Shown one piece after another: positions 10,206 through 54,204 of a stretch of DNA of 64,000 nucleotides (its first letter is position 1; every line of letters begins with the position of its first letter). Below the pieces are notes generated by a model. The model was not told the DNA's origin, did not search any database, and saw only the letters and a list, made by a program, of their open reading frames with translations. The position numbers were made by a program, and so were the translations under genes. The DNA lies in contig JAMCVZ010000035.1 of the NCBI GenBank assembly GCA_023476565.1, positions 1-64,000 on the forward strand, read 5' to 3'. The DNA comes from Nitrospirota bacterium. GTDB lineage: Bacteria > Nitrospirota > Thermodesulfovibrionia > Thermodesulfovibrionales > Dissulfurispiraceae.

Positions 10206-10207
10206 AG

Positions 10208-11768: not shown

Positions 11769-11929
11769 ATTTAATCCAAGCTGCTCCTTACAGTTTCAGA
11801 AAGGTCATACTTCCCTGCTGAGCGTCTGCCCGGGATCTCCAATACCGCAAGAATGCAACAGCCTGTTATCCGTTGTCCATGGTCCAGCATTGGCAAAGTA
11901 TTAGTCTTCCTTTCAACAATTTTAGCAAA

Positions 11930-11963
11930 GGTGGGGCAAGGGATTGAAATCCCCTGCCCCACC
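11930..11963 (-). terminator. Hairpin after dsrC
   Basis: GGTGGGGCAAGGG..ATCCCCTGCCCCACC forms a strong GC-rich stem about 20 bases past the dsrC stop, followed on the minus strand by TTTGCTAAAATTG. It can partly separate the highly expressed dsrC message from the dsrMKJOP genes downstream. The rest of the 11769-11982 gap shows no gene. Confidence 0.65.
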
Positions 11964-11982
11964 CTTCATATCAGTTCGTTCT

Positions 11983-12318
11983 TTATACGCAACCTGTCGG
12001 CTTCGGCAGTCCTGCATATCTGCATGCCTGCTTTGCCGGCCCGTCCGGGAACAGCTCATAAAGGTATTTTGTGTTACCTTTGTCCGGCCCCATTACCTTG
12101 CCGACCTCTTTTACGAGGATCTTGATCATGGGGGCTATCTGGTATTTCTGGTAGTAGTCCCTAAGGAAGTTGATGATCTCCCAGTGACTGTCTGAAAGTT
12201 CAACTCCATCGCCCTTAGCCATTGCTACAGCGATATCCTTGTTCCAGTCCTCAAGGTTGATCATGTATCCGTCCTCATCCACTTCAACCTGTTTTCCTGC
12301 GATTTCAATGTTTGGCAT
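11983..12318 (-). CDS. dsrC: DsrC sulfur carrier protein
   Basis: A 111-residue DsrC. The flexible C-terminal arm ends CRYAGLPKPTGCV, with Cys99 and the penultimate Cys110, the pair that forms the DsrC trisulfide with sulfite-derived sulfur from DsrAB. Conserved segments are VDEDGYMINLEDWN, SDSHWEIINFLRDYY and ELFPDGPAKQA. Both Cys are present, so this is a true DsrC and not a TusE/RspA variant. AAAGGAGGCACACT precedes the ATG. It has its own upstream region (12319-12493) and a downstream hairpin, consistent with separate, strong expression. Confidence 0.96.
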   Translation of the reverse strand: MPNIEIAGKQVEVDEDGYMINLEDWNKDIAVAMAKGDGVELSDSHWEIINFLRDYYQKYQIAPMIKILVKEVGKVMGPDKGNTKYLYELFPDGPAKQACRYAGLPKPTGCV

Positions 12319-12416
12319 AGTGTGCCTCCTTTCTCAGAATTATTTTTAGAGTATGCTACTATTTACGATTCAGACATATTCTAAACTTAAAGTCAAAAGA
12401 TAAAAGTCTAATGAAA

Positions 12417-12443
12417 ATAATATAGAATTGCAAATCAGGTCAA
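12417..12443 (-). promoter_or_regulatory. Possible dsrC promoter
   Basis: On the minus strand TTGACC (12443-12438) is followed after 15 bases by TATTAT (12422-12417). The spacing is short. The whole 12319-12493 gap is AT-rich and holds no gene, which suits a promoter for dsrC. Confidence 0.3.
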
Positions 12444-12493
12444 ATAAATTAATATTATAATGACATTTGCTTTTTTTATCTATCTTGATTATT

Positions 12494-13519
12494 TTATCTA
12501 TTAGCTCTCTTATACAACACTTCTTTAGCCACTTCACCAACTGCCGTTTTAACCAGCGCCCCATCTTTATAGAAGTTCATCCGGCTCTTATCATCCGACA
12601 GACTTTTGATACTCTCGATGTCCTTTTCATCCCCCAGCATCCCGATTGCCCAGACTGCATATCCCCTGACGGCCGGGTTGTTATCGTCTAACAGTAATTT
12701 TAAATCATTCAAGGCAAATCGCACAAGGTCCGGCCTGACACCGGCAATGCGGCCCACTGCCCAGGCTGTACCTGCCCGGAACATATCTTCCTCTCTGAAC
12801 GACCATAAAATAGGAATAATATCCCTGAATTCATCAGGACCATTTCTTATTATCTCACCCAATATCTCCGCAGCGCTCCAGCCGATCCCCCCCGACTCGT
12901 CCCCCATGGACCATAACAGCCGCCTTATCGTATCCCTTACGACATCCATCCTCTCTCCGGACAGCTCCCGGCTTATGAGCCCCAGGGCCTCCATGGAGCG
13001 CCAGCTGATAGCGTCCTCTTTGTCGTATGAAAGCGAGATAAGCCTGCTGATCACGCTCTTATCCTGCTTCGCCATATTGACAAGCTCATCATACGAGCCT
13101 GCTTCCAGCAAGCGTTTGACGCTTCCTTTCAGATTTGCCTTGCCTGCTTTATCCCTTTCGCTCTTTTTGTCTGTAATAGTCTGAGCGGTGTCCCCGTGCT
13201 TTGACTTTATCAACAGGAGTTTTCCGGCTGCATTGCTGAGACCTTTGGAATAAATCCTTGTGTGGGATTTTAAATCGTAGTCCATCTCAAACATCCGGTA
13301 ATCCGTATCTGAATCCAGAGCGGCTATATCCCAGTCTCCCCTCAGCAGCGCAAGGGCCTCCATGTAAGCTTCGCCTATATTGTGGCCCGTCGGGTCGCAT
13401 ACATAGACTGTTCCACATGCGCATTTCCCGCTCAGGATCTCTCCGAATTCCGTCTGTGTTACAGCCGGGCGTGCAATAGGCCTTCCGCAAAACGGGCATT
13501 CCGGTGTGTATTTATTCAT
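12494..13519 (-). CDS. HEAT-repeat protein of the dsr region (DVU0298-like)
   Basis: A 341-residue protein. The N-terminus has a zinc-ribbon-like pair, CPFCG (9-13) and GKCACGTVYVCDP. The C-terminal half is a helical HEAT-type repeat array: ISWRSMEALGLISREL, GIGWSAAEILGEIIR, FRAGTAWAVGRIAG and AVRGYAVWAIGMLGD are four visible repeat units. Proteins with this layout occur near dsr genes of sulfate reducers, where one is known as the DVU0298 family; I recall this rather than derive it. A scaffolding or assembly role for Fe-S/sirohaem enzymes is possible but speculative. It lies 12 bases after dsrN and is probably co-transcribed with dsrABDN. Confidence 0.7.
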   Translation of the reverse strand: MNKYTPECPFCGRPIARPAVTQTEFGEILSGKCACGTVYVCDPTGHNIGEAYMEALALLRGDWDIAALDSDTDYRMFEMDYDLKSHTRIYSKGLSNAAGKLLLIKSKHGDTAQTITDKKSERDKAGKANLKGSVKRLLEAGSYDELVNMAKQDKSVISRLISLSYDKEDAISWRSMEALGLISRELSGERMDVVRDTIRRLLWSMGDESGGIGWSAAEILGEIIRNGPDEFRDIIPILWSFREEDMFRAGTAWAVGRIAGVRPDLVRFALNDLKLLLDDNNPAVRGYAVWAIGMLGDEKDIESIKSLSDDKSRMNFYKDGALVKTAVGEVAKEVLYKRANR

Positions 13520-13531
13520 CTGCTCCTCGCC

Positions 13532-14995
13532 TCATGAGCGCTTCCAGGAAAAGCGCCCGTGAGGGCCTTCCTTGAATTCCAGCGCCCTGTTTATAAGCCC
13601 GGCCGCCCAGTCACGCGCTCCGAGGACATGGACATGCGTATAGGTGGCAAGGACATTCTTATAGCACATGCCATCCCTCTTACTCCTTATCCCCTGCCCC
13701 CGTTTCATACCAAAGGCCATATGTATGCTCTCCGCCTCCTCCATGCTCACAACAGCCGAATAGTGGAATTCATGGCCGTGCAGAACAGTCCCGACAGGAT
13801 AAAAGGGGTTCTCCCTCTCTATCTCTACAATGGTATAGCCATGCGCCTGCGGCTTCTCTTTCATTTCAAAGGTAATGGGGAATACGCCGACCATCGGATG
13901 TTTTCTTCCTTCCACTATGATCGACTCCCCCAGGAACATGAGACCTCCGCATTCAGCATAAACCGGAAGCCCCCGTTCGACCATCGCGCGCACTGAATTT
14001 CTGAAGCTCGCATTTTCAGCAAGTTTCAGGGCATTCGTTTCAGGGAACCCGCCGCCGATATAAAGGGCGTCAATATCAGGCAAAGCGGTATCCGACAGGG
14101 CATTGATATCTATTATCCCAGCGCCCCTGCTCTCCAGTTCTTCGAGATTTTCCGGGTAGTAGAACTGGAACGCGGTATCCCGGATTACACCTATCTTCAG
14201 TGACGAGTGACGGGTGACATCAGTAACGAGTAAAGGATCACTGCCTTTCTTTTCGTTTAACTCGTTACTTGTTACTGGTGACTTGTTACTGTCTTCTAAT
14301 GGTTCAGCCCCGTTCGCAATGTCGAGGATTCTATCCAGATCGAGATATTCCCCGGCTGTTTGCTCGACAAATGAAATCGCCTGTTCTGTGGCAGGGTGCT
14401 CGTGATACGGTGTCAGGCCCATATGGCGCTCGGGGAACTCGCCATCTTTCAGTCTCGGTATTGCGCCGAGCACGGGCAGCGAACAATATTTCTCTATAGA
14501 TGCCCTCACAACCGACTCATGCCGGCTCCCCGACACCTGGTTGAGAACAATCCCCTTTATGGCAACAGCCCTGTCCATTTCCATGCATCCCAGAACTATG
14601 GCAGCAGTCGTCCTCGTCATCTTTGTGCAATCGACAATCAGGACGACGGGTGACCTGAGGAGCTTGGCAAGCTCCGCCGTGCTGTATGAGCCCTCTGCGT
14701 CCATTCCGTCATAGAGGCCCCTGTTGCCTTCTATAACAGCTATATCCCCGTGAAAATGAGCAATGAACGATTCCAGCACCTTTTCCCTGGAGATAAGGAA
14801 CGGATCGAGGTTATAACAGGGATTGTGCGCTGCAAGGGACATCCAGCCTGCGTCTATGTAATCAGGCCCTTTTTTGAAAGGTATTACCCGCAGCCCCTTC
14901 CGGCGCTTAAATGCGGCCGTCAGCCCGAGCGAAAGGGTGGTCTTTCCACTCCCTCCCTTAATGCCGGCAACAACCAATCGCGGGTAATTGCTCAT
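13532..14995 (-). CDS. dsrN: DsrN / cobyrinate a,c-diamide synthase family
   Basis: A 487-residue two-domain amidase of the CbiA/CobB family. The N-terminal ATP-binding domain has GIKGGSGKTTLSLGL, KKGPDYIDAGW and VIEGNRGLYDG. The C-terminal class I glutaminase domain has IGGGFPE and the nucleophile region PVYAECGGLMFLG. In dsr loci this enzyme is called DsrN and is thought to amidate sirohaem for DsrAB; it could also serve cobalamin synthesis together with the cbiG-cbiH gene. A ~31-residue insertion encoded by a palindromic repeat (14199-14293) lies exactly between the two domains. The stop region is followed 12 bases later by the HEAT-repeat gene. Confidence 0.9.
   Translation of the reverse strand: MSNYPRLVVAGIKGGSGKTTLSLGLTAAFKRRKGLRVIPFKKGPDYIDAGWMSLAAHNPCYNLDPFLISREKVLESFIAHFHGDIAVIEGNRGLYDGMDAEGSYSTAELAKLLRSPVVLIVDCTKMTRTTAAIVLGCMEMDRAVAIKGIVLNQVSGSRHESVVRASIEKYCSLPVLGAIPRLKDGEFPERHMGLTPYHEHPATEQAISFVEQTAGEYLDLDRILDIANGAEPLEDSNKSPVTSNELNEKKGSDPLLVTDVTRHSSLKIGVIRDTAFQFYYPENLEELESRGAGIIDINALSDTALPDIDALYIGGGFPETNALKLAENASFRNSVRAMVERGLPVYAECGGLMFLGESIIVEGRKHPMVGVFPITFEMKEKPQAHGYTIVEIERENPFYPVGTVLHGHEFHYSAVVSMEEAESIHMAFGMKRGQGIRSKRDGMCYKNVLATYTHVHVLGARDWAAGLINRALEFKEGPHGRFSWKRS
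14199..14293 (-). repeat. In-frame palindromic element in the dsrN interdomain linker
   Basis: On the plus strand it reads CAGTGACGAGTGACGGGTG.. to ..CTTGTTACTGGTGACTTG. Read on the gene strand it runs GTAACAAGTAACGAGTT through a short core to TTTACTCGTTACTG. The encoded peptide is SNKSPVTSNELNEKKGSDPL and then TRHSSL, nearly that of the smc copy. Confidence 0.85.
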
Positions 14996-15072
14996 TTTTT
15001 ATTATACCCCATGCGCTCTCAAAACTGTCTGCCTCGACACCCAAATAAGTTTCGCAATAATTGAACCAAAAA

Positions 15073-15113
15073 CAAAAAAAAGGCAGTCCTACCACTTTCG
15101 TGGGCTGCCTTTC
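15073..15113 (-). terminator. Terminator after dsrABD
   Basis: On the minus strand AAAGGCAGCCCACGAAAGTGG..GACTGCC is followed by TTTTTTTGTTTTTGG. The strong stem and T tract end the dsrA-dsrB-dsrD transcript before dsrN. Confidence 0.85.
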
Positions 15114-15135
15114 ATTCGGTATTAGAAAAACTAAA

Positions 15136-15354
15136 TTACTCTTTCGGTGGAATCTCTACGAAGCTGCCGCCAAAGTATGTATATATAAGCGTTCCGTTAT
15201 CGATTAGTTCCCTTAACGCATCCTTAACCTCATCCCTTGAAATGCCAGCTTCTGCAGATACGGCCTTCTGGATATCACTTGATTTCAGCTTTTTCTTGCC
15301 GATAGATTTCTCCACCAGAGCGTATATTTTCTGTTTTACCTCTTCCTTTTCCAT
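15136..15354 (-). CDS. dsrD: DsrD
   Basis: A 72-residue winged-helix-like protein: EKEEVKQKIYALVEKS, KKLKSSDIQKAVSAEAG, EVKDALRELIDNGTLIYTYF. DsrD is associated with the reductive form of the Dsr pathway and has been reported to stimulate DsrAB activity. ATG 15354 is chosen because AAGGAGAGG stands at the right distance; a longer frame to 15411 would run back through the dsrB-dsrD hairpin. It is slightly shorter than the usual ~78 residues. Confidence 0.9.
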   Translation of the reverse strand: MEKEEVKQKIYALVEKSIGKKKLKSSDIQKAVSAEAGISRDEVKDALRELIDNGTLIYTYFGGSFVEIPPKE

Positions 15355-15397
15355 ACTAGCACCTCTCCTTATTGAGCAGTTTAGCGGTTTGCAATCA

Positions 15398-15433
15398 CCA
15401 TCAGGAAACATGCGCTTGCATGTTTCCTGATGG
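15398..15433 (-). other. Perfect 16-bp-stem hairpin between dsrB and dsrD
   Basis: CCATCAGGAAACATGC, four loop bases, GCATGTTTCCTGATGG: every base of the two 16-base arms pairs. It lies 17 bases past the dsrB stop and about 44 bases before the dsrD start, with no T tract. It probably protects the dsrAB message or sets the dsrAB:dsrD ratio. Confidence 0.75.
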
Positions 15434-15449
15434 ACCTGTCTTTATATTT

Positions 15450-16520
15450 TTACCACTTGAACGTAGCTGCTGTTCTGAATGTTTCCCTTGCAATCGTAAA
15501 GTCGTCTATGTGCTGGAAGGTGAACGGCAGTCCTGTAAGAGAGAAGAACTTCTCCCAGCCTATCCTCTCGACCCACTCGCCGACCCTCTCATGTTTTTTG
15601 GCGCCTGCGATGTATGTGTCAAGGATTTTCTTGATCACCGAAGTGACCTCCGGCCATCTCGGCGGGTTGTTCGGTATATAGGGAACGGTAAGCTTCGAGA
15701 ACTTCGGAAAGCTCCTGAGGCTTCCAACTTTACCGCCGACCACGATTGCCACCCCGTCATTCACCGGATCGGATATCGGGAGGGCAGGACATACGGAGTA
15801 GCAGTTACCGCAGTACATACATTTATCATCGTTGATCTTGAGGCTCTTCTTTGCAGGATCAGGGCTGATCGCTCCTGTCGGGCAAGCTGCTATTGTAGAC
15901 GGGACCTCACACATATTCTTGATATTGCCATGGTCGACCCTGGGGACCTTCCTGTGGATGCCGACCAGAGCGATATCTGAGCAGTGTACTGCGCCGCACA
16001 TATTCGTACAGCAGGCGACTGCCAGTCTTACTTTGTTCGGCAGCTCTTTGGTTGTAAAGTAATCTGCGAGGTCATCCATTATCGCCTTGACGAGCCCGGA
16101 AGCATCGGTTGCCGCCGAATGGCAATGCACCCATCCCTGTGTATGGACGATATTGCTTATTCTGGGGCCGATACCACCGGCCAGATAGCCTTTCTGCTTG
16201 AGCTCTTTCTGCAGGGGCTCAATGTTCTTCTCGTCGGATACAAGGAACTCAGCATTGTTTCTTGTTGTAAACCTGATGTATCCGCCGCAATATTTCTCGG
16301 CGATATCAGCCATATCCCTGATGGTATCGGTGCTGAGCAGCCTCGGTGAAGCGACTCTTACGGTCCATATCTTGTCACCGCTGTCGGCTACGTGAACCAT
16401 AACGCCGGGGTTGATAATTTCGTGATACTTCCAGCTCCCGTAGTTTTTCTGGATAACAGGCGGTAAAAAATCCTTATAGTGAGGTGGTCCTATATCTGTT
16501 CTTCTTTGTGGTGCAGCCAT
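15450..16520 (-). CDS. dsrB: DsrB, dissimilatory sulfite reductase beta subunit
   Basis: A 356-residue beta subunit. The sirohaem-[4Fe-4S] site is formed by [15 protein letters not shown]. An inserted ferredoxin domain carries [15 protein letters not shown] after [12 protein letters not shown]. Conserved DsrB segments such as [16 protein letters not shown] and [15 protein letters not shown] are intact. With DsrA it forms the cytoplasmic alpha2beta2 enzyme that reduces sulfite to DsrC-bound sulfur. It follows dsrA by 36 bases, with AGGAGGAAATAT before the ATG. Confidence 0.97.
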
Positions 16521-16556
16521 ATATTTCCTCCTTTATTTATATTTTTAATTTTTAGT

Positions 16557-17741
16557 TTATTTCTGCAAATCTGCTTCGGTCCAGAAGTAAAACGGATCCC
16601 TTCTCGGCTCTTTCACCTGCTGGGGAACAGGCTCAACACCGATGTACTCGAGGAACTCTCTCATTCCACGCCTTATGATAAGCTCTCCGATTCTCTCCCT
16701 GTTCTTTCCGTGCTCGTCCCACCATTCCCACATCTTCCTTATCAGATCCTTGAACTCGTCATAGGGCGGCTCCATCTTTATGAACGGAACGATTACCCAT
16801 GAGAGCGTAGCGCCGATAACGAACGGGGCCTTGCTGCCGATGAGGATTGTTGCGCCTTTCTCGCCGGTCGGTTTCAATGCCTTTGTCATCTTTGCGATAC
16901 AGTGCATGCACCTTACGCAGTTTGCATCGTCGATCTTAAGCTGTTTGCCGTCGTAGCTCATGCACTTGCTGGGGCACATGCCGACGATTTCCTCTGAGAT
17001 GTTCATGCCCTTTTTCTCATAATTGGCGACTTCGGCTTGGTCAATTGCTATATTGCCTTTCCATGTGCCGATGATGGAGCAGTCCGCACGGGCGATGGAA
17101 GCATTACAGTCAACAGCGCAGCCGACTGTTTTAAATTTAAACTTATAGGGGAATGCAGGCCTGTGCATCTCGTCCTGGAATTCCTGGGTAATGCTGTAGT
17201 TGATGTCGAGGGTATCGATGTTTGCCCATTCGCACCGTGCCGGTCCCACGCAGCAGCTTGGGGTTCTCATTGCAGAACCCGAGCCCCCGAGGTCCCAGCC
17301 GCGGGAGGAGAACTCCGCGAAGATCTGCTCAAGCTGATCGGTCTTTGTCCCCAGAAGGACCAGGTCACCGGTGGAGCCGTGCAGGTTGGTAAGGCCGCTT
17401 CCATGCTTGTCCCATATATCGCACATCTCTTTCAGGAATTTGGATGTATAGAAGAACGCAGATGTGGAGTTGATTCTTACAGTGTGGAAATGAGCAACAT
17501 TGGGGAAATCCTCCGGTATATCGGAGTATCTTCCGATAACGCCGCCGCCGTATCCACGCACACCGACGATACCGCCGTGTTTCCAATGGGTTTTCTTGTC
17601 TCTGAAGCACCTTTCGAGCTGCCCGAGAGCGTCAGCCGCCATATCGGTTTTAGCAGCCGCCTTCTTCATTTCAGTAACAAAGCTCGGGAATGGACCTTTT
17701 TCCAGCTCGTCCAACAGGGGGGTGTCATACTTCTTTGGCAT
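16557..17741 (-). CDS. dsrA: DsrA, dissimilatory sulfite reductase alpha subunit
   Basis: A 394-residue alpha subunit. Cysteines for the sirohaem-linked [4Fe-4S] cluster are in TPSCCVGPARCEWAN and VGCAVDCNASIARADC. The ferredoxin domain has MCPSKCM and ANCVRCMHCIAKM. Substrate-channel residues such as GVRGYGGGVIGRYSD and TNLHGSTGDLVLLG match the family. It is the first gene of the dsr operon. AAAGGAGGATTTT precedes the ATG. The 198-base gap to smc is AT-rich and contains the divergent start regions. Confidence 0.97.
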   Translation of the reverse strand: MPKKYDTPLLDELEKGPFPSFVTEMKKAAAKTDMAADALGQLERCFRDKKTHWKHGGIVGVRGYGGGVIGRYSDIPEDFPNVAHFHTVRINSTSAFFYTSKFLKEMCDIWDKHGSGLTNLHGSTGDLVLLGTKTDQLEQIFAEFSSRGWDLGGSGSAMRTPSCCVGPARCEWANIDTLDINYSITQEFQDEMHRPAFPYKFKFKTVGCAVDCNASIARADCSIIGTWKGNIAIDQAEVANYEKKGMNISEEIVGMCPSKCMSYDGKQLKIDDANCVRCMHCIAKMTKALKPTGEKGATILIGSKAPFVIGATLSWVIVPFIKMEPPYDEFKDLIRKMWEWWDEHGKNRERIGELIIRRGMREFLEYIGVEPVPQQVKEPRRDPFYFWTEADLQK

Positions 17742-28451: not shown

Positions 28452-29276
28452 TTACTCGATCCATCTCTTCGGCGGCTGCTTAAGGTATCTCTCTGAAAAG
28501 AGGCTGTCCTCAATGCCGATATTATAATCGACTTTCGTATAGCTGACCTCTGTCCTATGCCCGCTCTGAAGGTTTTTCATCGTCCTTTTGGTGACTGTGG
28601 GGAACCCCTTTACATCCTTTACCTCATCAGCAGAGAATACTTTGGAAAGCTCTCCACGTCTGTCATAGTATTCCTCTTTCAGAGGCAGGAAATTGGCCTT
28701 ATCTATCCAGGAAAGCTTGTAGCTGTAGTCCACGTCCTGCACCTTTGGCGTGCTTTTTACTACATAACTATCTCTCCCTCCGACTTTCTCCTCTTTCACC
28801 AGGGCATGCGTGTCATCCTCAATGTTCCTTCCTGAGACGTCCTCGTAGGTGAAGTCAGAGCCCACAAAGCTGGAGTATTTATCCCTTGCCGCGATCCTCC
28901 TTACCATATTGATTGCAGGAACATAGAGCCATCTGTCGGCATCCTTCCCCGGGTATTTATAAACCATAAAGGTCATATCCTTTACATCAGCAGGCTGGTA
29001 GAAGTAGATGAAATACTTCTGGTTGCCGCCGACTTCACCGAAATTCTTCCTCAGCATGGTGAGTTCCCTTATCCTTTCCTGGCCTCCCTGACTGATGAGC
29101 TTCATCATTACGCGAGCCTTAAAGTCCTTTCCCTGGTAGAGAAAGGCGGCCTGTGACTTTTTCATCACCTCTGCCGGCGACAGGGCAAAAGCGTCAAAAA
29201 CACCCATTGTGAGTAAAAGCAAAAGTGTTATCCCCAGCGGCAGGAAACCTTTTGCTTTGTGCCTTTTTGAGCTCAT
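28452..29276 (-). CDS. Outer-membrane lipoprotein-sorting (LolA-like) protein
   Basis: A 274-residue exported protein. After a signal peptide (FLPLGITLLLLLTMGVFDAFA) come ALSPAEVMKKSQAAF, RIRELTMLRKNFGEVGG, DVKDMTFMVYKYPGKD and RWLYVPAINMVRRIAARD. These are typical of the outer-membrane lipoprotein-sorting family (LolA-like half-barrel) that accompanies MMPL/RND exporters. With the RND gene at 31834 and the barrel at 27180 it likely forms a cell-envelope export route; the substrate is unknown. About 185 bases separate it from the YeeE gene. Confidence 0.82.
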   Translation of the reverse strand: MSSKRHKAKGFLPLGITLLLLLTMGVFDAFALSPAEVMKKSQAAFLYQGKDFKARVMMKLISQGGQERIRELTMLRKNFGEVGGNQKYFIYFYQPADVKDMTFMVYKYPGKDADRWLYVPAINMVRRIAARDKYSSFVGSDFTYEDVSGRNIEDDTHALVKEEKVGGRDSYVVKSTPKVQDVDYSYKLSWIDKANFLPLKEEYYDRRGELSKVFSADEVKDVKGFPTVTKRTMKNLQSGHRTEVSYTKVDYNIGIEDSLFSERYLKQPPKRWIE

Positions 29277-29461: not shown

Positions 29462-30853
29462 TTATCCTACGACTCCAATGCTCCTTTCGCTAATCTCCTT
29501 CAAGAATATCTCGTCCGTGGACTGGGATATGTACTCTTTCGGAGTGACCTTTGTTATCCGTGAGCCCTTCTTTATTGCCCATATAAGAAGAAATACCAGG
29601 AGTGCAGTATAAGCAAGCGCAAAGCCATACTGTATGTATGGATTGTCCGGTAAAAGCTCAAGCATGTTCTTCTCCTTCATAAACCCCCGTGAGAAAAAGA
29701 TTTCGTCGATCTGGTCCTTGTAGAGAGAGTAAGGAAGATATCCGAGCAGAAATCCCGGTAACGCAGCGAGGCCGGTAAGATACGACATGCCGAGCCGCGA
29801 GTATGTCCTTATCTCGCAGCCGAGCATCATAACGCTCCCGATGCCGAGCATAGGACCTCCGACCAGGTGTCCCAGGTGAAAGCCGTATTTGTATCTTCCG
29901 GCCTCAACAACTACGGGAACATCCCACCCGAGGACGATCCAGGTGAAGAGTATAGTTAAGTTGAACATGAGGATCGCAACAAGGAGTCCGGCAAACGGCA
30001 TCAATCCCGTAAACATCGTCTGCGTGATCTTCGCAACCTTCATTGCCTCGAAGTGTTTCGGCTTCATGAGAAGCGATTTGGGCGACATGACGGCGCATTC
30101 CGTGCCGAACCCTGACTTGCCGATGCCGATACCGACAAGAAGCCCGACAAGGCTTTTCAGGCCGATCTCCATCCACGGCAGGCTTCCGATGCTGTTGGGA
30201 GATTCCCCTTTCAGGGACGTCCAGAAGGATGACACGATCAGCAGGAGAAAGAAGGCTGTGAGCGCAAGCCGTACCGGGGCCTTGTAAGGCTTGTATTCAG
30301 GGTCATAGCTAAGGGTTTCGGTCAGGTACTCAAGTTCAACGCACTTTTCAACGGTTGCCTTCACCTCATGATGCTTCATGAACCCGCCGGCGTTTAATTT
30401 TGCCATAAGCATAAATGCAAGATATGCGAAGGGGATGCTTACCACTGCAACGATAATAGAGGTCAGGCTCATGGCAGGTATGCCTCCGAGGTAATGCCAT
30501 GCCGTGCACCCCTGGGCAAGCCTGGTGCCGAAACCGAATATCATGGCCCCAAAAAAGGCAAGCAGCAAGACACGCGGCGGGTATTTCACCCAACTCTTTC
30601 GCTCCTTCTCGATAAGCGTCACAAGGCAGCCCCCGGAGATTATACCTATCAGTATCCAGTGGATATCTCCGCTATAGGTCCTCGTGATAAAATCCGTCTT
30701 TGTGATGTTTTCCTCAAGAGTGCCGAACATCTTTGCGAGTCCCGTTGTTATCGGGATGGGCGTTTCGTATTTCAGGAAATAGAGCACCTCCGCAAGCCCG
30801 ACCAGAAAGCCTCCCCATACGAATGACCATGGCTTTGTAAGTATGTCTCTCAT
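29462..30853 (-). CDS. YeeE/YedE-family sulfur-compound transporter
   Basis: A 463-residue membrane protein with about ten spans. Conserved Cys-containing motifs occur in membrane segments: GFGTRLAQGCTAWHYLGG, GKSGFGTECAVMSP and IGSVMMLGCEIRTYSRLG. In this family (TsuA type) such cysteines relay thiosulfate or other sulfane-sulfur compounds inward. Placement directly after a periplasmic rhodanese and in a cluster with SQR- and DsrE-like genes supports sulfur uptake. The gap to the rhodanese gene is two bases, so they are co-translated or closely coupled. Confidence 0.88.
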   Translation of the reverse strand: MRDILTKPWSFVWGGFLVGLAEVLYFLKYETPIPITTGLAKMFGTLEENITKTDFITRTYSGDIHWILIGIISGGCLVTLIEKERKSWVKYPPRVLLLAFFGAMIFGFGTRLAQGCTAWHYLGGIPAMSLTSIIVAVVSIPFAYLAFMLMAKLNAGGFMKHHEVKATVEKCVELEYLTETLSYDPEYKPYKAPVRLALTAFFLLLIVSSFWTSLKGESPNSIGSLPWMEIGLKSLVGLLVGIGIGKSGFGTECAVMSPKSLLMKPKHFEAMKVAKITQTMFTGLMPFAGLLVAILMFNLTILFTWIVLGWDVPVVVEAGRYKYGFHLGHLVGGPMLGIGSVMMLGCEIRTYSRLGMSYLTGLAALPGFLLGYLPYSLYKDQIDEIFFSRGFMKEKNMLELLPDNPYIQYGFALAYTALLVFLLIWAIKKGSRITKVTPKEYISQSTDEIFLKEISERSIGVVG

Positions 30854-30855
30854 GG

Positions 30856-31356
30856 CTACTTTTCCACAGGATAATTTTTTGTTCCGGCCTTATTTATTAC
30901 GGCCTTCATCTGCTCTCCGCTGCGGGAGCCTTTTACCCATGCAGCATAACCGAATGCCAGGGTGTTCGCATCATAGCCAAGCATTCTTAAAGGGACTACC
31001 GGAAGGTTTTCAAGCTGTCCCGTAGCACAGACAAGGACTATCTTTTTATCTTTTGGCAGACTCTTCAGGCTTTCAGGCGTAAGGATTGCGTTATACGGTA
31101 TGTGTATAGCCCCTGGAATATGTCCTTCCCTGTATGCGTCTGCACCCGGCCTGACGTCTACGACAAGGAAGTCCGTCTTTTTAGTCTTCAGCCACATATA
31201 GAGCTCATCGGCATTCACTTGCCAGTGACCTTCCTCAACAGCCTTGAGCAGGATATCATTCATCTTTTTTGCGATATTGTCATCTTCTGCAAACACAGGC
31301 GACACGGCAAAAAGGGCAACAACAGATATAATCAGGTATGTTTTAATCTTTTTCAT
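30856..31356 (-). CDS. Periplasmic rhodanese-like sulfurtransferase
   Basis: A 166-residue protein with a signal peptide (YLIISVVALFAVSPVFA) and a single rhodanese domain: FLVVDVRPGADAYREGHIPG, then the active-site loop VCATGQ, whose Cys would bear the persulfide, and LAFGYAAWVKG. The loop is followed by small residues as in active enzymes. It probably handles sulfane sulfur in the periplasm and passes it to the YeeE transporter encoded two bases downstream. A CAGGGT-CACG-ACCCTG hairpin (31401-31416) lies upstream. Confidence 0.88.
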   Translation of the reverse strand: MKKIKTYLIISVVALFAVSPVFAEDDNIAKKMNDILLKAVEEGHWQVNADELYMWLKTKKTDFLVVDVRPGADAYREGHIPGAIHIPYNAILTPESLKSLPKDKKIVLVCATGQLENLPVVPLRMLGYDANTLAFGYAAWVKGSRSGEQMKAVINKAGTKNYPVEK

Positions 31357-31430: not shown

Positions 31431-31832
31431 TCAACCTATTCCAAGCCGGAAATCCTTGACCTCTTTGACCACGTTTTTAAGCTTTACGCCTGACTTTTCC
31501 GCTATGTCCTGCCATCCCTTGCCGGACTTTTTCATGGCTGCGATCTCTTTGTACGGCTTCCTGGAGAGATTTGACAGGACAAGCACGGTAATTGCCTCTC
31601 CGGGGCGGAATTCTTTAAGCAGGCTTTCAATCGCCTCGGGTTTCTGAGATTCAAAGAAGTATGCTTTGGTCTTCTTCTCAAATACTTTGAGGTTCTTCGA
31701 TTGCCGTTCGTTGATCTTGCTTATTGTCCGGTCCAGTTCCTCAGGCTCTGACAGCCTTCCGGCAAAAGAGGCCAGGGGAAACAGAAAGGTGAAGACAAAA
31801 GATATAATCAAAACTTTTCCGGTTACCGTCAT
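31431..31832 (-). CDS. Exported small protein of unknown function
   Basis: A 133-residue protein with a signal peptide (VLIISFVFTFLFPLASFA) and a charged helical body: EPEELDRTISKINERQSK, YFFESQKPEAIESLLKEF and SGKGWQDIAEKSGVKLKNV. The last segment resembles a small helix-turn-helix-like repeat found in secreted proteins. No Cys is present. It lies two bases from the RND gene on one side and before the rhodanese gene on the other, so it is part of the sulfur/envelope cluster. No function is assigned. Confidence 0.7.
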   Translation of the reverse strand: MTVTGKVLIISFVFTFLFPLASFAGRLSEPEELDRTISKINERQSKNLKVFEKKTKAYFFESQKPEAIESLLKEFRPGEAITVLVLSNLSRKPYKEIAAMKKSGKGWQDIAEKSGVKLKNVVKEVKDFRLGIG

Positions 31833-31833: not shown

Positions 31834-34161
31834 TTACTTTAACCCTCCTTTAAACAGCCGCCCCTGCATTAACGTTATTAAGGCAGGGAGATAGATGATT
31901 GTCATTATTGAGCTGAGCATCATCATGCTCACGATAAACGCCCCCACGGTGATATAGGGGGTAAGGGGCGCAAAAAGCATCACCGAAAAGGCAGAGGCAA
32001 AAAGCACTGCGTTGCGCATTATCCCCTTGCCCGGCCTGGCGGCAGTCCAGAGCAAGGCGTCATCCAGAAGAGCGGGAGTAAGGGCCTGCCGGCCCGGCTC
32101 CCGGCTTTCTTTCAATCTCTGCCTGAACCTGCTTATGAAATGGATGGAGAAGTCCACCGCCATGCCAAGGGACAGGCACGAGAGCACGGATATGGGCATG
32201 TCGAAATCCTTCCCGATGAAGCCCACAACCCCGTATATGAGCACGATGGTGAAAAGGAGGGGAATGTATCCGATGACCGCCCAGGTGAAAGAGCGGAAAT
32301 TGATAATGAGGATTATAAAAACAACAACCAGTGCAAAGACAAAACCCTTTACCATATCCCACAAGACCTCGTGGTTCCAGACGAGATTGAAATAGGCAAT
32401 GCCCGCGGGTTTGAGCTCCAGGGGGATGGGGTTGGCTTTTTTGTATTCATCTACTGCCTTTATCACACTCTCCATCGCCCGGGCATCCCACGTCTTGAGC
32501 TGCACCCATATGTTTGCCTTCTGGAACGGATAATCGACGACGTTGTCGAGGTCCGAGGGTTTTGCCGACATGCTGAAGAGGAAAAGGTACTGTCCTATCA
32601 TCTCCTTTGTATCAGGCACTTTGTCGTATTTGGGGTCATTATCGTGGAGTACCAGGTTTATCCTCTTCACATAATCGACAACGGAAGTCGTCTTTCCAAC
32701 CACCGGCAGTTTTTCAAGATGCCGCTGGAGCCCCTCTATATACCGCATCGCTTCAGGGGTCTTTATAAAATTCTCTTCTTTTGACAGTGCCACGATATAA
32801 CCGAGCGATGTGCCCCCGAGGGACCGGTTCAATGCCCTGTCCGCAACCCTGATGTCACTGCCGTATTTGAACCACTCTAGCATGTTGTTGTTCACGACGG
32901 TTTTTGTAATGCCGGCTGCGGCAAGCATACACAGCAGCAATCCGGCTGCAACGGTCGCTCTCGGTTTATGTGCGCCGAGGCTGCCGAGTTTTCTCAGGAA
33001 TAAAGAGGTTTTGCTTGTGCCGGCATCCTCTCTCATTGATGCACGCTGGAGTTTTTCATCGCTGATAAACGTCAGAAGCGCGGGAATAAGTGTGAAGCTT
33101 GTAAGCAGCAGCGCCATTGTGCCGAATGCGATGCCGAAGCCGAAAACCTTTACGGGGATTATGTTCGCAAGCATAAGCGATCCGAAACCAACGGCTGTCG
33201 TAATATCCGTATAGATGAGGGGCACTCTGACCGCCCTCATGGTTTCGATAATCGCGATTTTCTTGTCTTTCTTTTCACGGTATCTGAAATAGAATTCATT
33301 GAATATATGGATGCTGTCGGTAGCAATAGCCATCAAAAACACAGGGGCCATTGAACTCATAATATGTACGGGGAATCCCATGCCGATAAGCAGGCCCATG
33401 CTCCAGACGATTATTGCCATTGCGGGTATCATTATCGATACCGAGAGGAAGAGACTCCTGAACATGATGTAAGAGACGATGAACATGATCATCCCCGCAA
33501 TGGGGGAGAATATGCCCATCAACTTGAACATCTCCGCACCGAACGTGTCCCGCGCCACAGGGTCGCCTGCAATGTAATACTTCTCGTCACCCTTTTCCTT
33601 TTTTATTATTTCCCTTATTTTGTCGGCTATTTCCTTGCCGTTTGAGCCCTTCTCAAGGGGGACATATATCGCAGTGGTTTTTCCGTCTTTCGAGATAATG
33701 CGGTTGATGAAAAGCGGATTCTCAAAGAGCATTTCCCGGAGAGTGGCTATCTCCCCGTCGTTTTTCGGCACTTCTGTCATGAGCGGCGCTACTTTGAGCA
33801 CGCCGTTTTCCGCAGTAACATTGGTGATGGTCGGGAAACTGTTGACATCCCGTGCTGCCACGCCTTTGATCCTGAGGATCTCATCAGTTATCCGGTTGAC
33901 CCTGGCGAGGCTCCCTTTATTGAGGATCCCCTTTTCATTCGCAATTCCCACCACGATCATATCTTCGTAAAGGCCGAAGGTCTTATCCACCGAGTCATTC
34001 CATACCCTTACATCCGATGTGGCGGGAAGCATATTTTTGGGATTGGTATCCGTGCGTATCTTGGGGAACTGGCTCATAAACGCGAGGGTAAGGATGACGG
34101 TTAATATTATGATGAGCTTTGGGCGCTCTACTGAAAATTCAACAAGAGAAAACCTTTTCAT
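31834..34161 (-). CDS. RND/MMPL-family exporter
   Basis: A 775-residue membrane protein with duplicated halves. Each half has one N-terminal span, a large periplasmic domain and a five- to six-span sterol-sensing-like bundle. Family signatures are ATDSIHIFNEFYFRYREKKD in the first half and SLGMAVDFSIHFISRFRQRL in the second. It is probably a proton-driven exporter of hydrophobic or sulfur-containing compounds to the outer membrane, with the LolA-like protein and the barrel downstream. It follows the SQR-like gene by 16 bases. Confidence 0.88.
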   Translation of the reverse strand: MKRFSLVEFSVERPKLIIILTVILTLAFMSQFPKIRTDTNPKNMLPATSDVRVWNDSVDKTFGLYEDMIVVGIANEKGILNKGSLARVNRITDEILRIKGVAARDVNSFPTITNVTAENGVLKVAPLMTEVPKNDGEIATLREMLFENPLFINRIISKDGKTTAIYVPLEKGSNGKEIADKIREIIKKEKGDEKYYIAGDPVARDTFGAEMFKLMGIFSPIAGMIMFIVSYIMFRSLFLSVSIMIPAMAIIVWSMGLLIGMGFPVHIMSSMAPVFLMAIATDSIHIFNEFYFRYREKKDKKIAIIETMRAVRVPLIYTDITTAVGFGSLMLANIIPVKVFGFGIAFGTMALLLTSFTLIPALLTFISDEKLQRASMREDAGTSKTSLFLRKLGSLGAHKPRATVAAGLLLCMLAAAGITKTVVNNNMLEWFKYGSDIRVADRALNRSLGGTSLGYIVALSKEENFIKTPEAMRYIEGLQRHLEKLPVVGKTTSVVDYVKRINLVLHDNDPKYDKVPDTKEMIGQYLFLFSMSAKPSDLDNVVDYPFQKANIWVQLKTWDARAMESVIKAVDEYKKANPIPLELKPAGIAYFNLVWNHEVLWDMVKGFVFALVVVFIILIINFRSFTWAVIGYIPLLFTIVLIYGVVGFIGKDFDMPISVLSCLSLGMAVDFSIHFISRFRQRLKESREPGRQALTPALLDDALLWTAARPGKGIMRNAVLFASAFSVMLFAPLTPYITVGAFIVSMMMLSSIMTIIYLPALITLMQGRLFKGGLK

Positions 34162-34177: not shown

Positions 34178-35365
34178 TTACGGCAAATTGCTTATGCCGT
34201 GTTTCATCTTCCATAAGAAATATTTTTCAAAGGACACTTTGAGCCATTTGGCCCAGATGCCTTTTTTCGTGTAGGACTGCTGCCTCGGCGGGAGCACAGG
34301 GGAGGCTTTCATGAGCGCTGCCGAGTTCCCCATATCCATGAGACAGATGACTTCCAATTCGCTCTGGGGGGGCGGGGCGCTTCCTTTGATATCCGAGAAA
34401 ATTGCAGCAGAAGCTGTTTTCGCCATCTTTACGGTCATAAACCCGGTTTTTGGAACGCCGACCGGTACCGGTGTGGGTTCCGGTGGCGCTATTGCCATTG
34501 CAACACCGATCGTAAAGATATTCCGGTATTTTGTATGCCGGTAATTTTTATCAACGGGAATGAATCCCCGTGGGTTCCCGAGGGGGGCGACGGCTGGCAC
34601 GCCTTTGAACGGAGGGGCTATCATGGCAAGTTTGAAGGGTATCTTGGAGCCGTCTTTGAGCCTGATCTCTTCAGGTGTAACCTCCTCAATGGCCTGGTTT
34701 ACGATTGTCTTAATCTCCTTGTCGGCGAACTCATCCTCAAAAAATCTCTTCGAGTTGCCCATGCCGGCGACTCCCATATGCCCGAGATAGGGTTCCGAGG
34801 TAAGATAGATTAGAGGCACTTTGTGCCGCAGCTTTCTCCTTTTCAGCTCTGCATGCATCTCAAATGCAAGCTCATACGAGGGTCCGAAGCAGCTTACCAT
34901 CTGTGCCGAGCCGATAACTACCGGGCCCGGATTTTCGAGGATATGCTTCCATGTCTGCCCTGTCTTTATTGCATGGTCAAGAGTGAAGGTGCAATCAGTA
35001 TGGCCCTTTTCAGGTCCCAGGCCGGGGATCTCGTCAAATGAAAGATAGGGGCCGGTTGAAATGACGAGATAATCATAGGATATCTCCGTGCTTGCTGTAG
35101 TGACTTTCGATTTGTCGGGATCAACACCTCTTGCTGCCTCACGGATAAAGCTGATCCCTTCAGGCTTGAGGATTTCATCAACGCCGAGGGTTATATCATC
35201 AGGTCTCCTCCACCCCATTATCAGCCATGGAAGTGAAGGCAGATAAGTAAACTTGTCGTCATCACTGATAACGGTTACTTCCGCCTCTTTGCCAAGCAGC
35301 CTCCGCAGTTCAAGCGCTGCGGTAAGACCTCCGAATGATCCCCCAAGAACTACAATCCTCGTCAT
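34178..35365 (-). CDS. SQR-like FAD/NAD-binding oxidoreductase
   Basis: A 395-residue two-dinucleotide-binding flavoprotein. The N-terminal FAD site is IVVLGGSFGGLTAALEL. SQR/FCC-like features are YDYLVISTGPYLSF, VSCFGPSYELAFEMHAEL (a Cys in the position of the second catalytic Cys of sulfide:quinone reductases), NIFTIGVAMA and PVPVGVPKTGFMTVKMA. A further Cys is in EVICLMDMG. It probably oxidises sulfide to sulfane sulfur and passes electrons to quinone, though other acceptors cannot be excluded. The C-terminal amphipathic end (WLKVSFEKYFLWKMKH) suits membrane binding. The DsrH/DsrE-like genes are just upstream. Confidence 0.8.
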   Translation of the reverse strand: MTRIVVLGGSFGGLTAALELRRLLGKEAEVTVISDDDKFTYLPSLPWLIMGWRRPDDITLGVDEILKPEGISFIREAARGVDPDKSKVTTASTEISYDYLVISTGPYLSFDEIPGLGPEKGHTDCTFTLDHAIKTGQTWKHILENPGPVVIGSAQMVSCFGPSYELAFEMHAELKRRKLRHKVPLIYLTSEPYLGHMGVAGMGNSKRFFEDEFADKEIKTIVNQAIEEVTPEEIRLKDGSKIPFKLAMIAPPFKGVPAVAPLGNPRGFIPVDKNYRHTKYRNIFTIGVAMAIAPPEPTPVPVGVPKTGFMTVKMAKTASAAIFSDIKGSAPPPQSELEVICLMDMGNSAALMKASPVLPPRQQSYTKKGIWAKWLKVSFEKYFLWKMKHGISNLP

Positions 35366-35396
35366 AATTATCCCCCCTTGCTTTCAAGCTTCCTTG

Positions 35397-35678
35397 TCAA
35401 AACATTCCGATTACCTTATCTCTTTCGGTCATTAAATCAATAAGGCCATCATAATTTATACTTTTTATGCGTTGATTAGCGCTGTAGTCCCGAATACCCC
35501 TTAACCGAATGTCGTCCTCAAGCACATAAGCTGTTTTATGGAATCCCTCAAGCCGGTCCTCCTGCGCAAAATAGACTCCATTTTGCACAAGGACAATATC
35601 GGCATTCATGCTTCTGGCGATTCTCACACCACGCCTGCCTTCAGATGTATCCGGAGCACTTCTTACAATTACGAGCAT
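35397..35678 (-). CDS. DsrH/TusB-like protein, second copy
   Basis: A 93-residue protein resembling DsrH: IVLVQNGVYFAQED, AYVLEDDIRLRGI and YDGLIDLMTERDKVIGMF, the same order as in the protein at 4006. It lacks Cys. It forms a small DsrE-DsrE/F-DsrH group upstream of the SQR-like gene, so it probably works with those two as a second sulfur-relay complex. Confidence 0.7.
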   Translation of the reverse strand: MLVIVRSAPDTSEGRRGVRIARSMNADIVLVQNGVYFAQEDRLEGFHKTAYVLEDDIRLRGIRDYSANQRIKSINYDGLIDLMTERDKVIGMF

Positions 35679-35724
35679 ATTATCCTCCTCTTCTAAACCG
35701 TCAAAACCGCCTACGGTTCGGCAA

Positions 35725-36078
35725 TCAGAATATCATTGTTCTATCTGCCCCTTCGAGCATGGCAGCAATGTCGGATTCATTCACAATTCTTACTCCATCC
35801 ACAAGCTTCTCTTTTTCAAGAGATTGCTCCAGTAAAGACAGACTATCCACAAAAACCTCTATCCCCATTTCACGGCAATTATTTAACGTTGCTTCGAGAT
35901 TGGTGAATCCGGTGCCTTCGTCGTTCTGCCCTTTCCTTGCAAGCAGCACTCCCCCATCGACCATTATGAGCGCGACTTTCAAATTGCCCGACACTCCGCC
36001 GAGTGCGTGTCTTAAAGCCTCAGCCGCATTAGTATCGCCATACGGCGGCTTCCTGAGTATCATCGCTACTTTTTCCAT
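35725..36078 (-). CDS. DsrE/DsrF-like protein without the reactive CxxC
   Basis: A 117-residue DsrE-fold protein: KVAMILRKPPYGDTNAAEAL, LKVALIMVDGGVLLA and MGIEVFVDSLSLLEQ, closing with EGADRTMIF. Where active DsrE proteins have Cys after the second core strand it has Asp-Ser, so it may be a structural partner of the UGA-containing DsrE encoded just upstream. GGAGGGGAT precedes the ATG. Confidence 0.72.
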   Translation of the reverse strand: MEKVAMILRKPPYGDTNAAEALRHALGGVSGNLKVALIMVDGGVLLARKGQNDEGTGFTNLEATLNNCREMGIEVFVDSLSLLEQSLEKEKLVDGVRIVNESDIAAMLEGADRTMIF

Positions 36079-36087
36079 ATCCCCTCC

Positions 36088-36444
36088 CTATGCCCCGATA
36101 TTGAGCCAGACATCACTTTCTCCCATAGTCTTGAAGAGACTCTTGAGAGAGCCCATTTCTGTTCCATCGATAAAGTCCTCTTTTGCCGCACGGCGAAAGT
36201 TCATGCAACCGCCTCAAAGATAGACTCTAATGCCTTTCCGGAGCAGCGAGGAGAATTCCTCTTCGGCATTCGTTATGCCTTTTGCCCTCTGCTTTTGTAA
36301 AAAGCAGTAAATTCCATCAGCCGATGCGATGAGATTGACCGTGTGTCCCTTGTTCAATGCGGACTCTGCAATGCGGACAGTTGTCAACGTGTTCTCATGA
36401 GAATAGGGAGATGTTGATAAAAATAAGGTAATCGCCTTTGCCAT
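36088..36444 (-). CDS. DsrE-family protein with in-frame UGA, probable selenoprotein
   Basis: Read through one TGA (36214-36216), this frame gives a 118-residue DsrE protein ending at TAG 36088-36090. Residues 1-76 (AITLFLSTSPYSHENTL, IAESALNKGHTVNLIAS) and 78-118 (GGCMNFRRAAKEDFIDGTEM, ESDVWLNIGA) match the start and end of the DsrE at 4316. The TGA is codon 77, aligned with that protein's Cys78, so CEAC becomes U-G-G-C. This suggests selenocysteine at the reactive position of a UxxC motif. A candidate hairpin follows at 36185-36209. Without readthrough the product would be a 76-residue protein lacking its active site. A nonsense mutation is the alternative. AAGGAGG precedes the ATG. Confidence 0.75.
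36185..36209 (-). promoter_or_regulatory. Candidate SECIS-like hairpin after the UGA
   Basis: Starting five bases after the TGA, GTTGCATG can pair with CGTGCGGC (8 bp, three of them G-T) around the loop AACTTTCGC. A second weak stem, AAAG-AGGA-CTTT, lies about 31 bases after the TGA. Neither is an ideal bacterial SECIS, so this is only a candidate. Confidence 0.35.
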
Positions 36445-36482
36445 GTTACCCTCCTTTTTGGTTTAATTTGAGTAATTATTAA

Positions 36483-36627
36483 CACGAGTTACGCACTGTA
36501 TGCGGTACATGAGTAAGGGGACTGTCCCTATTTACCAACAGCAGGTGGTTTACCACGGACGAAGCAGCAGCGGAGTCGTAGAATAGGGACTGTCCCCGGA
36601 GCACCCGAGTGATATGCGTAAGTCGTG
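36483..36627. repeat. Outer imperfect palindrome containing a GGGGACTGTCCC element
   Basis: CACGAGTTACGC (36483-36494) pairs with GCGTAAGTCGTG (36616-36627) with one mismatch. The GGGGACTGTCCC element (36517-36597) lies between them, so one element may have inserted in another. This occupies most of the gap between arsR and the UGA-containing dsrE gene. Confidence 0.55.
36517..36597 (+). repeat. GGGGACTGTCCC palindromic element, copy A
   Basis: It begins GGGGACTGTCCCTATT and ends GAATAGGGACTGTCCCC, inverted copies with a single central difference. The core reads TACCAACAGCAGGTGG.. to ..GGAGTCGTAG. The left flank CATGAGTAAG is shared with copy B. Confidence 0.9.
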
Positions 36628-36646
36628 ATAATAATTCCTGTCTTCA

Positions 36647-37012
36647 TCAGCGTATCCTTTCTCCCGTGCAAGTCTCTTTCCTGGTTACCGGACAGCATGC
36701 AGGCGCCGGCAAGTCATATTCATACTCTCTCTTTAATAACTCAAGTATATCCGGGATCATTGGATCTTTAAGAAAATAGCATCTTAGCCTTCCGTCAACA
36801 AAATATTCAATTAACCCATGTCTTCTGAGAATTGATAAATGCTGGGATACATTGGACTGGCTTATCTCAAGGAATTCCTCGAAATCACTCACACATCTTA
36901 TGCCCTTGGTAAGCTCGTCCAGTATCTTCATCCTGACAGGATGAGCAATAACTTTTAGCAGCTCCAATTTCCCCACCCCAAAAAACATCCTCTCTCCCTT
37001 GGATACATTCAT
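36647..37012 (-). CDS. ArsR-family transcriptional repressor
   Basis: A 121-residue winged-helix regulator: VIAHPVRMKILDELTKG, SDFEEFLEISQSNVSQHLSI (recognition helix) and LIEYFVDGRLRCYFLKD. Cysteines that might sense sulfur or metal are in GIRCVSDF (the position of the first Cys of the ArsR CVC motif), in RCYF and in PACCPVTRKETC. Reactive-sulfur sensors of the SqrR/BigR type are ArsR proteins using two Cys, so a persulfide sensor is plausible here, not shown. ATG 36988 (MFFGVGK), preceded by GGGAGAGAGG, is an alternative start. It stands at the head of the sulfur cluster. Confidence 0.85.
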   Translation of the reverse strand: MNVSKGERMFFGVGKLELLKVIAHPVRMKILDELTKGIRCVSDFEEFLEISQSNVSQHLSILRRHGLIEYFVDGRLRCYFLKDPMIPDILELLKREYEYDLPAPACCPVTRKETCTGERIR

Positions 37013-37042
37013 GGATTAAAATATATTAATATTTGAATGTAT
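37003..37042 (-). promoter_or_regulatory. Operator-like inverted repeat upstream of arsR
   Basis: ATACATTCA (37003-37011) and TGAATGTAT (37034-37042) are perfect 9-base inverted arms around an AT-rich centre. They overlap the -10 region and the start codon, a typical position for an autorepressing ArsR protein. Confidence 0.6.
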
Positions 37043-37049
37043 TTGTCAA
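37020..37049 (-). promoter_or_regulatory. Promoter of arsR and possibly the sulfur cluster
   Basis: On the minus strand TTGACA (37049-37044) is followed at 17-18 bases by ATATAT/TATATT (about 37025-37020). The spacing and the perfect -35 box fit a housekeeping sigma factor. The operator-like repeat overlaps it. Confidence 0.7.
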
Positions 37050-37345
37050 GGGGAAAATAAAATTAGGGGAAATTCAATTGCGAATCTCTTTATTCCTCCC
37101 TCCGGATAGTGCACCACAAATGACTTAAGGCTTTGATATATTAGCTTTTTTAATCTATCTAACGATTCCGGACGGGCATCGAGGAATTCCCATGTGAAAA
37201 AGGAAGGCTGCATTGATGAATTATGGCGGGATGGACAATCTTCTTGCCCTGGCGAATGGGCGACCTCAAGCCATAGCAGGCGCTTATTATTAAGCGAACG
37301 GTAACAAATCCAACAGAAGGGTGATGCCTCGCTGGCGATTTTAAA
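37046..37345 (-). pseudogene. Start-less open frame, probable gene remnant
   Basis: A minus-strand frame of about 95 codons has protein-like composition: ASEASPFCWICYRSLNNKR, LLWLEVAHSPGQEDCP, PSFFTWEFLDARPESLDRL and FVVHYPEGGIKRFAIEF. It has no start codon before an upstream stop and ends at TGA 37046-37048, within the arsR promoter. The family is not recognised. It may be the 3' end of a gene whose front was lost. Confidence 0.4.
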
Positions 37346-49624: not shown

Positions 49625-49699
49625 GGGGACAGTCCCTATTCTACGACTTCGCTTCGTCCGTGGTAAACCACCTACTGTTGGTAAATAGGGACAGTCCCC
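49625..49699 (-). repeat. GGGGACWGTCCC palindromic element, copy B
   Basis: The same ends as copy A (GGGGACAGTCCCTATTC at the left, AAATAGGGACAGTCCCC at the right), but the core is reversed relative to copy A: CTACGACTTCGCTTCG.. to ..CCACCTACTGTTGG. The flanks CATGAGTAAG and GCGCACCC resemble copy A's. It lies between the repeat lipoprotein and TPR-barrel genes. Confidence 0.9.
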
Positions 49700-52986: not shown

Positions 52987-53066
52987 GGGGACTGTCCCTA
53001 TTTACCAACAGTAGGTGGTTTACCACGGACGAAGCGAAGCTGAGTCGTAGAATAGGGACTGTCCCC
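52987..53066 (+). repeat. GGGGACWGTCCC palindromic element, copy C
   Basis: GGGGACTGTCCCTATTTACC.. to ..AATAGGGACTGTCCCC, in the same core orientation as copies A and D. It lies just before the HD-GYP tail remnant at 53076. Apart from this, the solo end and that remnant, the 52676-53166 gap shows only AT-rich sequence with no gene. Confidence 0.9.
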
Positions 53067-53989: not shown

Positions 53990-54067
53990 GGGGACTGTCC
54001 CTATTTACCAACAGTAGGTGGTTTATACCACGGACGAAGCAAAGCGGAGTCGAATAGGGACTGTCCC
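53990..54067 (+). repeat. GGGGACWGTCCC palindromic element, copy D
   Basis: GGGGACTGTCCCTATTTACC.. to ..GAATAGGGACTGTCCC. Outside the ends, TATCGTG (53979-53985) and CACGATA (54075-54081) pair, showing that the element has an outer inverted repeat too. It lies in the gap between the MBL gene and the chemoreceptor gene. Confidence 0.9.
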
Positions 54068-54204
54068 AACACTCCACGATATATTGTTTAAAAGTTTAAA
54101 AATCTCTTGACAATCTGAATGTTTCCGCCATAAACTTGTAGCCGGTATCTCTTAAATATAAGCCTGCTGTATAATTAAAAAATATTCCACACGGGGGGTG
54201 TGTA

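Follow-up and report, generated by a model that had tools for sequence, protein, structure and literature searches.

Gene organization of the locus

The stretch of DNA analysed, referred to as the window, comprises 64,000 nucleotides of a Nitrospirota genome of 2.67 Mb (73 contigs, 96% complete). Its minus strand carries a putative selenocysteine (Sec)-containing gene of the DsrE family, designated DsrE(U), within the following series of genes and features.

37020-37049, minus strand: sigma-70-like promoter match (TTGACA-18-TATATT, 11/12) before the ArsR gene, a consensus match only
36647-37012, minus strand: ArsR-family regulator; C40, C78, C106 and C107 are (nearly) invariant in 63 homologues
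36088-36444, minus strand: DsrE-family gene predicted to encode Sec; 118 codons starting with ATG, then the stop TAG at 36090-36088
36214-36216, minus strand: TGA (predicted Sec) codon 77, U-G-G-C motif, at the position of DsrE/TusD/YchN Cys78
36180-36199, minus strand: SECIS-like hairpin, 8-bp stem with one C-A mismatch in the window copy, loop GUGC (36191-36188) about 22 nt past the UGA
35725-36078, minus strand: DsrF/TusC-like subunit (PF02635, 6.4e-15; TusC/DsrF model, 47.4 bits, cut-off 94.15; A. vinosum DsrF chain 2hy5_B, 5.8e-07)
35397-35678, minus strand: DsrH/TusB-like subunit (PF04077, 1.2e-10; TusB/DsrH model, 43.6 bits, cut-off 49.2; 2hy5_C, 0.0014), without Cys
34178-35365, minus strand: sulfide:quinone oxidoreductase (SQR)-like flavoprotein with two near-invariant Cys (125 and 159)
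31834-34161, minus strand: MMPL/RND-family transporter, a conserved neighbour
31431-31832, minus strand: 133-aa protein with no family match, a neighbour in some relatives
30856-31356, minus strand: rhodanese-domain protein (PF00581, 2.1e-14)
29462-30853, minus strand: YeeE/YedE-type sulfur transporter (PF04143, 1.6e-21)
28452-29276, minus strand: LolA-like outer-membrane lipoprotein-sorting protein, a member of the conserved neighbourhood

The frame from 36444 to 36088 contains a single in-frame TGA at codon 77, with coordinates and frame as given in the initial annotation of the window. Mechanical ORF calling ends DsrE(U) at 76 residues, an example of a gene cut short by ordinary ORF calling. 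With Cys put at the TGA codon, the product matched the DsrE domain PF02635 (E = 1.7e-16), and this domain together with the UxxC motif fits the DsrE-like UxxC selenoprotein family. U77-G-G-C80 aligned as first proposed with the CEAC motif of the DsrE protein encoded at 4316-4678, U77 falling on the first Cys and KED following in both. The overall likeness claimed for these two proteins proved to be weak, at 26% in the multiple alignment with a BLAST stretch of only 32 residues; much closer are a TGA-containing paralogue elsewhere in the genome (44%, on contig C40) and homologues in other Nitrospirota, at up to 85%. Matches to PPR proteins were discarded as artefacts from summing many very weak repeats.

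The two genes following DsrE(U), unremarked in the initial annotation, are those of the DsrF and DsrH subunits. The place of the gene in a cluster with ArsR, SQR, RND, rhodanese and YeeE had been regarded as the unusual part. The cluster is not peculiar to this genome: the order ArsR, DsrE(U), DsrF, DsrH, SQR, MMPL recurs across Nitrospirota loci, and DsrF and DsrH follow DsrE(U) in nearly all loci read. No terminator-like site was found from ArsR to DsrH within 35300-37200, and a putative operon start lies in front of the ArsR gene. The neighbouring DsrF, DsrH, SQR, MMPL, rhodanese and YeeE genes yielded no further in-frame UGA.

Conservation of the in-frame UGA

Searching 396 genomes of the phylum gave more than 100 homologues, and a scan of named genomes gave 21 loci, all from Nitrospirae/Nitrospirota or Thermodesulfovibrio relatives by title and many of them from the same genomes as the phylum search. 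With L133 (UGTS) and the broken L071 set aside as fitting the motif in neither case, the codon-77 site was TGA in 87, TGC in three and TGT in one of 91 distinct Nitrospirota genes; the alignment of homologues, suggested earlier as a check, thus returned TGA or Cys each time and a random residue never. A TGA shared by 87 of the 91 is not attributable to chance. All 91 genes have a Cys three residues past the site, making Cys80 invariant. In the 56 close, type A homologues pN/pS was 0.19 before the TGA versus 0.20 after it, and this equal purifying selection on both sides suggests that the part downstream of the TGA is translated. The true terminal stop is TGA in 14 of the same 56 genes, indicating that this codon serves as a stop too. 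A second group, type B, has a U-T-G-C motif and contains the paralogue on contig C40.

Four Cys genes (L074, L075, L076 and L077) come from four genomes of one other family and have CGTC for the Sec motif and no SECIS hairpin. In an unrooted tree they form one clade, with the Sec genes on the other side. The idea that such Cys homologues mark the loss of the Sec machinery was dropped, since selA is kept in three of these four genomes; among 40 chosen genomes, nearly all of those with a TGA-containing DsrE have selA. The window gene groups in the tree with genes from a different family and from a different lineage within the class, and the members of its own family with a close homologue, the window genome aside, have type B only, which together suggest that the cluster may have been gained by horizontal transfer. 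A viral or plasmid carrier was considered and rejected, as no viral relative was found and plasmids yielded only distant haloarchaeal DsrE.

A SECIS-like hairpin downstream of UGA-77

The initial annotation had marked a hairpin at 36185-36209 as a weak SECIS candidate. Its best placement is 36199-36180, and the hairpin stretch spans +15 to +42 nt after the TGA. Folded alone, the window copy was indeed weak, no better than shuffles, whereas comparison of homologues, from which the signal arises, revealed an element that is not weak. Apical loops among homologues are GUGC or GGUCUU. When synonymous codons were shuffled, leaving the encoded protein unchanged, the stretch from +15 to +42 had mean z values of -2.6, -2.4 and -1.9 in the Sec genes, taken as three groups, as against -0.6 in the four Cys genes; slid along the gene, the same test gave z of about -2.3 at the hairpin and -1.0 to +0.4 at 13 other offsets. 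In 30 diverse sequences, chosen by hand, the 8-pair stem had 87.5% of cells paired versus 43-55% when slid by one to three columns, and 40 doubly changed cells were counted versus 16 in shuffles. Because the stem lies in coding sequence and was derived from the same sequences, the slid control is to some extent biased in favour of the stem, a weakness from which the synonymous-codon test is free. The presence of a SECIS-like element after UGA-77 is well supported by sequence comparison, with the mismatch in the window stem and its lack of a fold signal alone counted against the explanation favoured below.

Selenocysteine decoding machinery

The sel genes had been named as a further check, and selA, selB and selD were found in the genome. 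selA scored 614 bits, and selD (355 bits) has its own in-frame TGA in a CAGU motif, so that it can serve as a control selenoprotein gene within the same genome. selB is broken at a stretch of C into two adjacent or overlapping frames (L009, contig C47, 7019-8984); either an assembly error, for which such stretches are a typical site, or a real frameshift may be the cause. selC was not found in the 73-contig assembly by covariance model (part of the candidates scored) or by DNA search with a congener tRNA-Sec, and nothing like it was found beside selB in this genome; a selC overlapping selB has been reported in Nitrospirae (PMC13188914). Of 40 relatives, 34 carry the tRNA-Sec gene, the same genus being represented among these 34, and ARAGORN confirmed tRNA-Sec(TCA) in all loci checked but one. 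The missing selC and split selB would fit gaps or errors of assembly, and we count both against the selenoprotein and relay explanation. Nearly all of the checks named in the initial annotation (selA/selB/selD, homologues with TGA or Cys, SECIS support) came out in favour of its selenoprotein call, and the comparative data strongly support DsrE(U) as a putative selenoprotein.

Structural model and comparison with known sulfur relays

An AlphaFold2 model of DsrE(U) (pLDDT 90.6) had as its best PDB matches E. coli YchN, a single-gene protein (TM 0.88), DsrE and DsrF of DsrEFH (0.87) and TusD (0.87). U77 aligned by sequence to YchN Cys78, and the common fold and numbering would lay Sec77 over DsrE Cys78. 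Of the A. vinosum DsrEFH residues, only DsrE-Cys78 has been observed with bound sulfur, which it hands to DsrC, and DsrH Cys20 is needed in vivo in the same organism (PMC3397948). The window cluster resembles that system in its E-F-H gene order, DsrE fold and reactive residue at the Cys78 position, but differs in that Sec replaces Cys, a further Cys lies at +3 and DsrH has no Cys20. Sequence identity is low, at 16% by structural alignment. The absence of Cys20 extends beyond the window DsrH, which lacks any Cys, as its homologues have no conserved Cys near that position. E. coli TusBCD (PDB 2D1P) and YchN (PDB 1JX7) share the fold, and the first Cys of the YchN CxxC aligns with Sec77; however, neither has selenocysteine, and the role of TusBCD is tRNA thiolation.

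DsrE(U) scored 18.5 bits against the TusD/DsrE equivalog model (cut-off 89.25) and missed the DsrE2 cut-off as well. As its subunits fall below the equivalog cut-offs and DsrH lacks Cys20, we do not call the set an orthologue of DsrEFH/TusBCD. Their adjacent E/D, F/C, H/B gene triad is present, and we propose that DsrE(U)FH works like the DsrEFH/TusBCD relay.

A further comparison is offered by the DsrEFH-like complex of YTD clusters in sulfur disproportionators and cable bacteria (PMC13047784), which is likewise divergent, linked to YeeE and equipped with a DsrH-like protein without Cys20; it differs in gene make-up, and the part of the text searched does not mention selenocysteine.

Proposed selenium-based sulfur relay and alternatives

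The explanation that we regard as fairly probable is that DsrE(U) is a Sec form of a DsrE/TusD-type subunit, which in a DsrE-DsrF-DsrH relay would carry sulfane sulfur on a selenol. Decoding of UGA-77 as Sec, strongly supported by comparison, would be carried out by SelB and Sec-tRNA(Sec), aided by the SECIS hairpin, and the protein would thereby contain Sec. Sec77 would then occupy the site of DsrE/TusD Cys78, the sulfur-holding residue of known complexes, and we infer that it turns DsrE(U) into a selenol-based persulfide carrier. A persulfide or polysulfide would donate sulfane sulfur to the selenolate of Sec77 to form a Sec-bound persulfide; the SQR, rhodanese and YeeE encoded alongside provide a context for the source of that sulfur. 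The sulfur could pass on to an acceptor such as the two-Cys DsrC of this genome; alternatively, Cys80 could resolve the Sec-bound persulfide via a Sec77-Cys80 selenenylsulfide. We likewise infer complex formation, the persulfide chemistry and DsrC as acceptor. Expression of the cluster is probably induced by reactive sulfur through the ArsR-type regulator, whose Cys set is near-invariant and which we liken to the sulfur sensors SqrR and BigR. Counted against the relay are the DsrH without Cys20, the missed TusD and DsrE2 cut-offs, and the fact that some relatives have selD in their cluster, which also suits a role in selenium metabolism.

The strongest competing explanation is delivery of selenium to SelD. 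DsrE(U)FH would here carry reduced selenium (perselenide) to an adjacent SelD and so feed selenophosphate synthesis, not sulfur metabolism. In the window's own genome, ArsR, the second TGA-containing DsrE, DsrF, DsrH and a TGA-containing SelD stand in a row (L072, contig C40, 7813-10449). A TGA-containing SelD precedes DsrE(U) in the type A loci L034, L039, L060 and L061, and L033 has a partial SelD; some of these loci may be one genome from two collections. An aminotransferase-V (NifS-like) gene follows the type B triad in L081, and YedF, a SirA/DsrE fusion, has been linked to selenium use (PMC5322559). However, SelD occurs in a minority of loci whereas SQR and MMPL occur in most, some Nitrospirota with SelA have no TGA-containing DsrE, and the cluster has no YedF-type fusion and a YeeE far below the selenium YedE cut-offs. 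We consider selenium delivery unlikely. The link to selD nevertheless leaves one to ask if a single carrier could serve both sulfur and selenium.

A role in thiol-disulfide redox chemistry or detoxification, with UxxC acting as a selenol/thiol reductase or a ligand in polysulfide, arsenic or metal stress and no sulfur relayed to a partner, appears quite unlikely. UxxC is the usual redox motif, DsrE-like proteins were grouped with thiol-based oxidoreductase homologues in surveys (PMC1794560, PMC1088965), the regulator and pump genes next to DsrE(U) are of the ArsR and MMPL families, and Cys80 is invariant; against this, the DsrF and DsrH genes that come after it in nearly all loci point to a hetero-oligomeric relay, and the fold matches DsrE and not thioredoxin.

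A dual chalcogen relay, in which a selenol-based DsrEFH induced through ArsR by reactive sulfur would both carry sulfane sulfur for energy metabolism and pass reduced selenium to a co-encoded SelD, thus supplying selenium for its own Sec, strikes us as very doubtful. A further reading, that there is no selenoprotein here, would make DsrE(U) a pseudogene or a sequencing error, or its TGA an ordinary stop with a 76-aa product or a codon for another residue. It could draw on the selC missing from this assembly and the imperfect SECIS copy, but the 87 homologues with the same TGA, the purifying selection beyond it, the covarying hairpin, the Sec genes and the use of TGA as a real stop make it extremely improbable, and on the basis of conservation, selection and that stop usage we reject a pseudogene, a sequencing error and an alternative code.

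Relation to catalogued DsrE-like selenoproteins

The statement in the initial annotation that DsrE-like selenoproteins had been reported in bacterial surveys was borne out by the literature. The DsrE-like UxxC family was described in 2005 from two sequences of Sargasso Sea data (PMC1088965) and in 2006 from one sequence of Desulfovibrio vulgaris (PMC1794560), and it appears in recent review literature (PMC13188914), catalogued without an assigned function. DsrE(U), likened to this family by domain and motif, shares with it PF02635, UxxC and a bacterial SECIS just past the UGA. It differs in that the earlier reports held one or two sequences each, whereas the present set holds 87 from one phylum, two paralogous groups included, and in that the genes here belong to DsrEFH operons with links to SQR, MMPL or SelD. 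A literature search, with most subscription journals outside its reach, returned no paper joining a selenoprotein with DsrEFH or with TusD. UxxC DsrE-like selenoproteins having been known since 2005, what is new is their setting among DsrEFH genes, the connection to selD and the spread across Nitrospirota.

If the relay reading is right, the single sulfur-moving Cys of DsrEFH/TusBCD became, or stayed, Sec across a large part of a phylum. With a predicted Sec at the reactive site beside two partner subunits, a selenium-based sulfur relay becomes a concrete and testable idea, and a catalogue entry without a function becomes a system in which one may ask whether a selenol would make persulfide transfer faster, reversible or oxidation-proof.

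Other sulfur genes and repeats in the window

A second, Cys-only set lies at 4006-5365 on the plus strand beside dsr genes and comprises DsrH-like, DsrE-like (CEAC), DsrF-like and TusA genes. It looks closer than the DsrE(U) cluster to the YTD-type DsrEFH-like/TusA set of sulfur disproportionators (PMC13047784), but has no adjacent YeeE. The dsr region at 5881-17741 (minus strand) contains dsrA, dsrB, dsrC and dsrMKJOP-like genes, with a weak DsrD match at 15136-15411 (18.3 bits, under the cut-off), and the DsrC of the window has both C-terminal Cys.

The sequence GGGGACWGTCCCTATT is repeated in the window at 36517-36597, 49625-49699, 52987-53066, 53990-54068 and 63252-63267, with nine matches versus 0.04 expected. 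It forms four inverted pairs about 60-80 bases apart, one of which lies between the ArsR and DsrE(U) genes.
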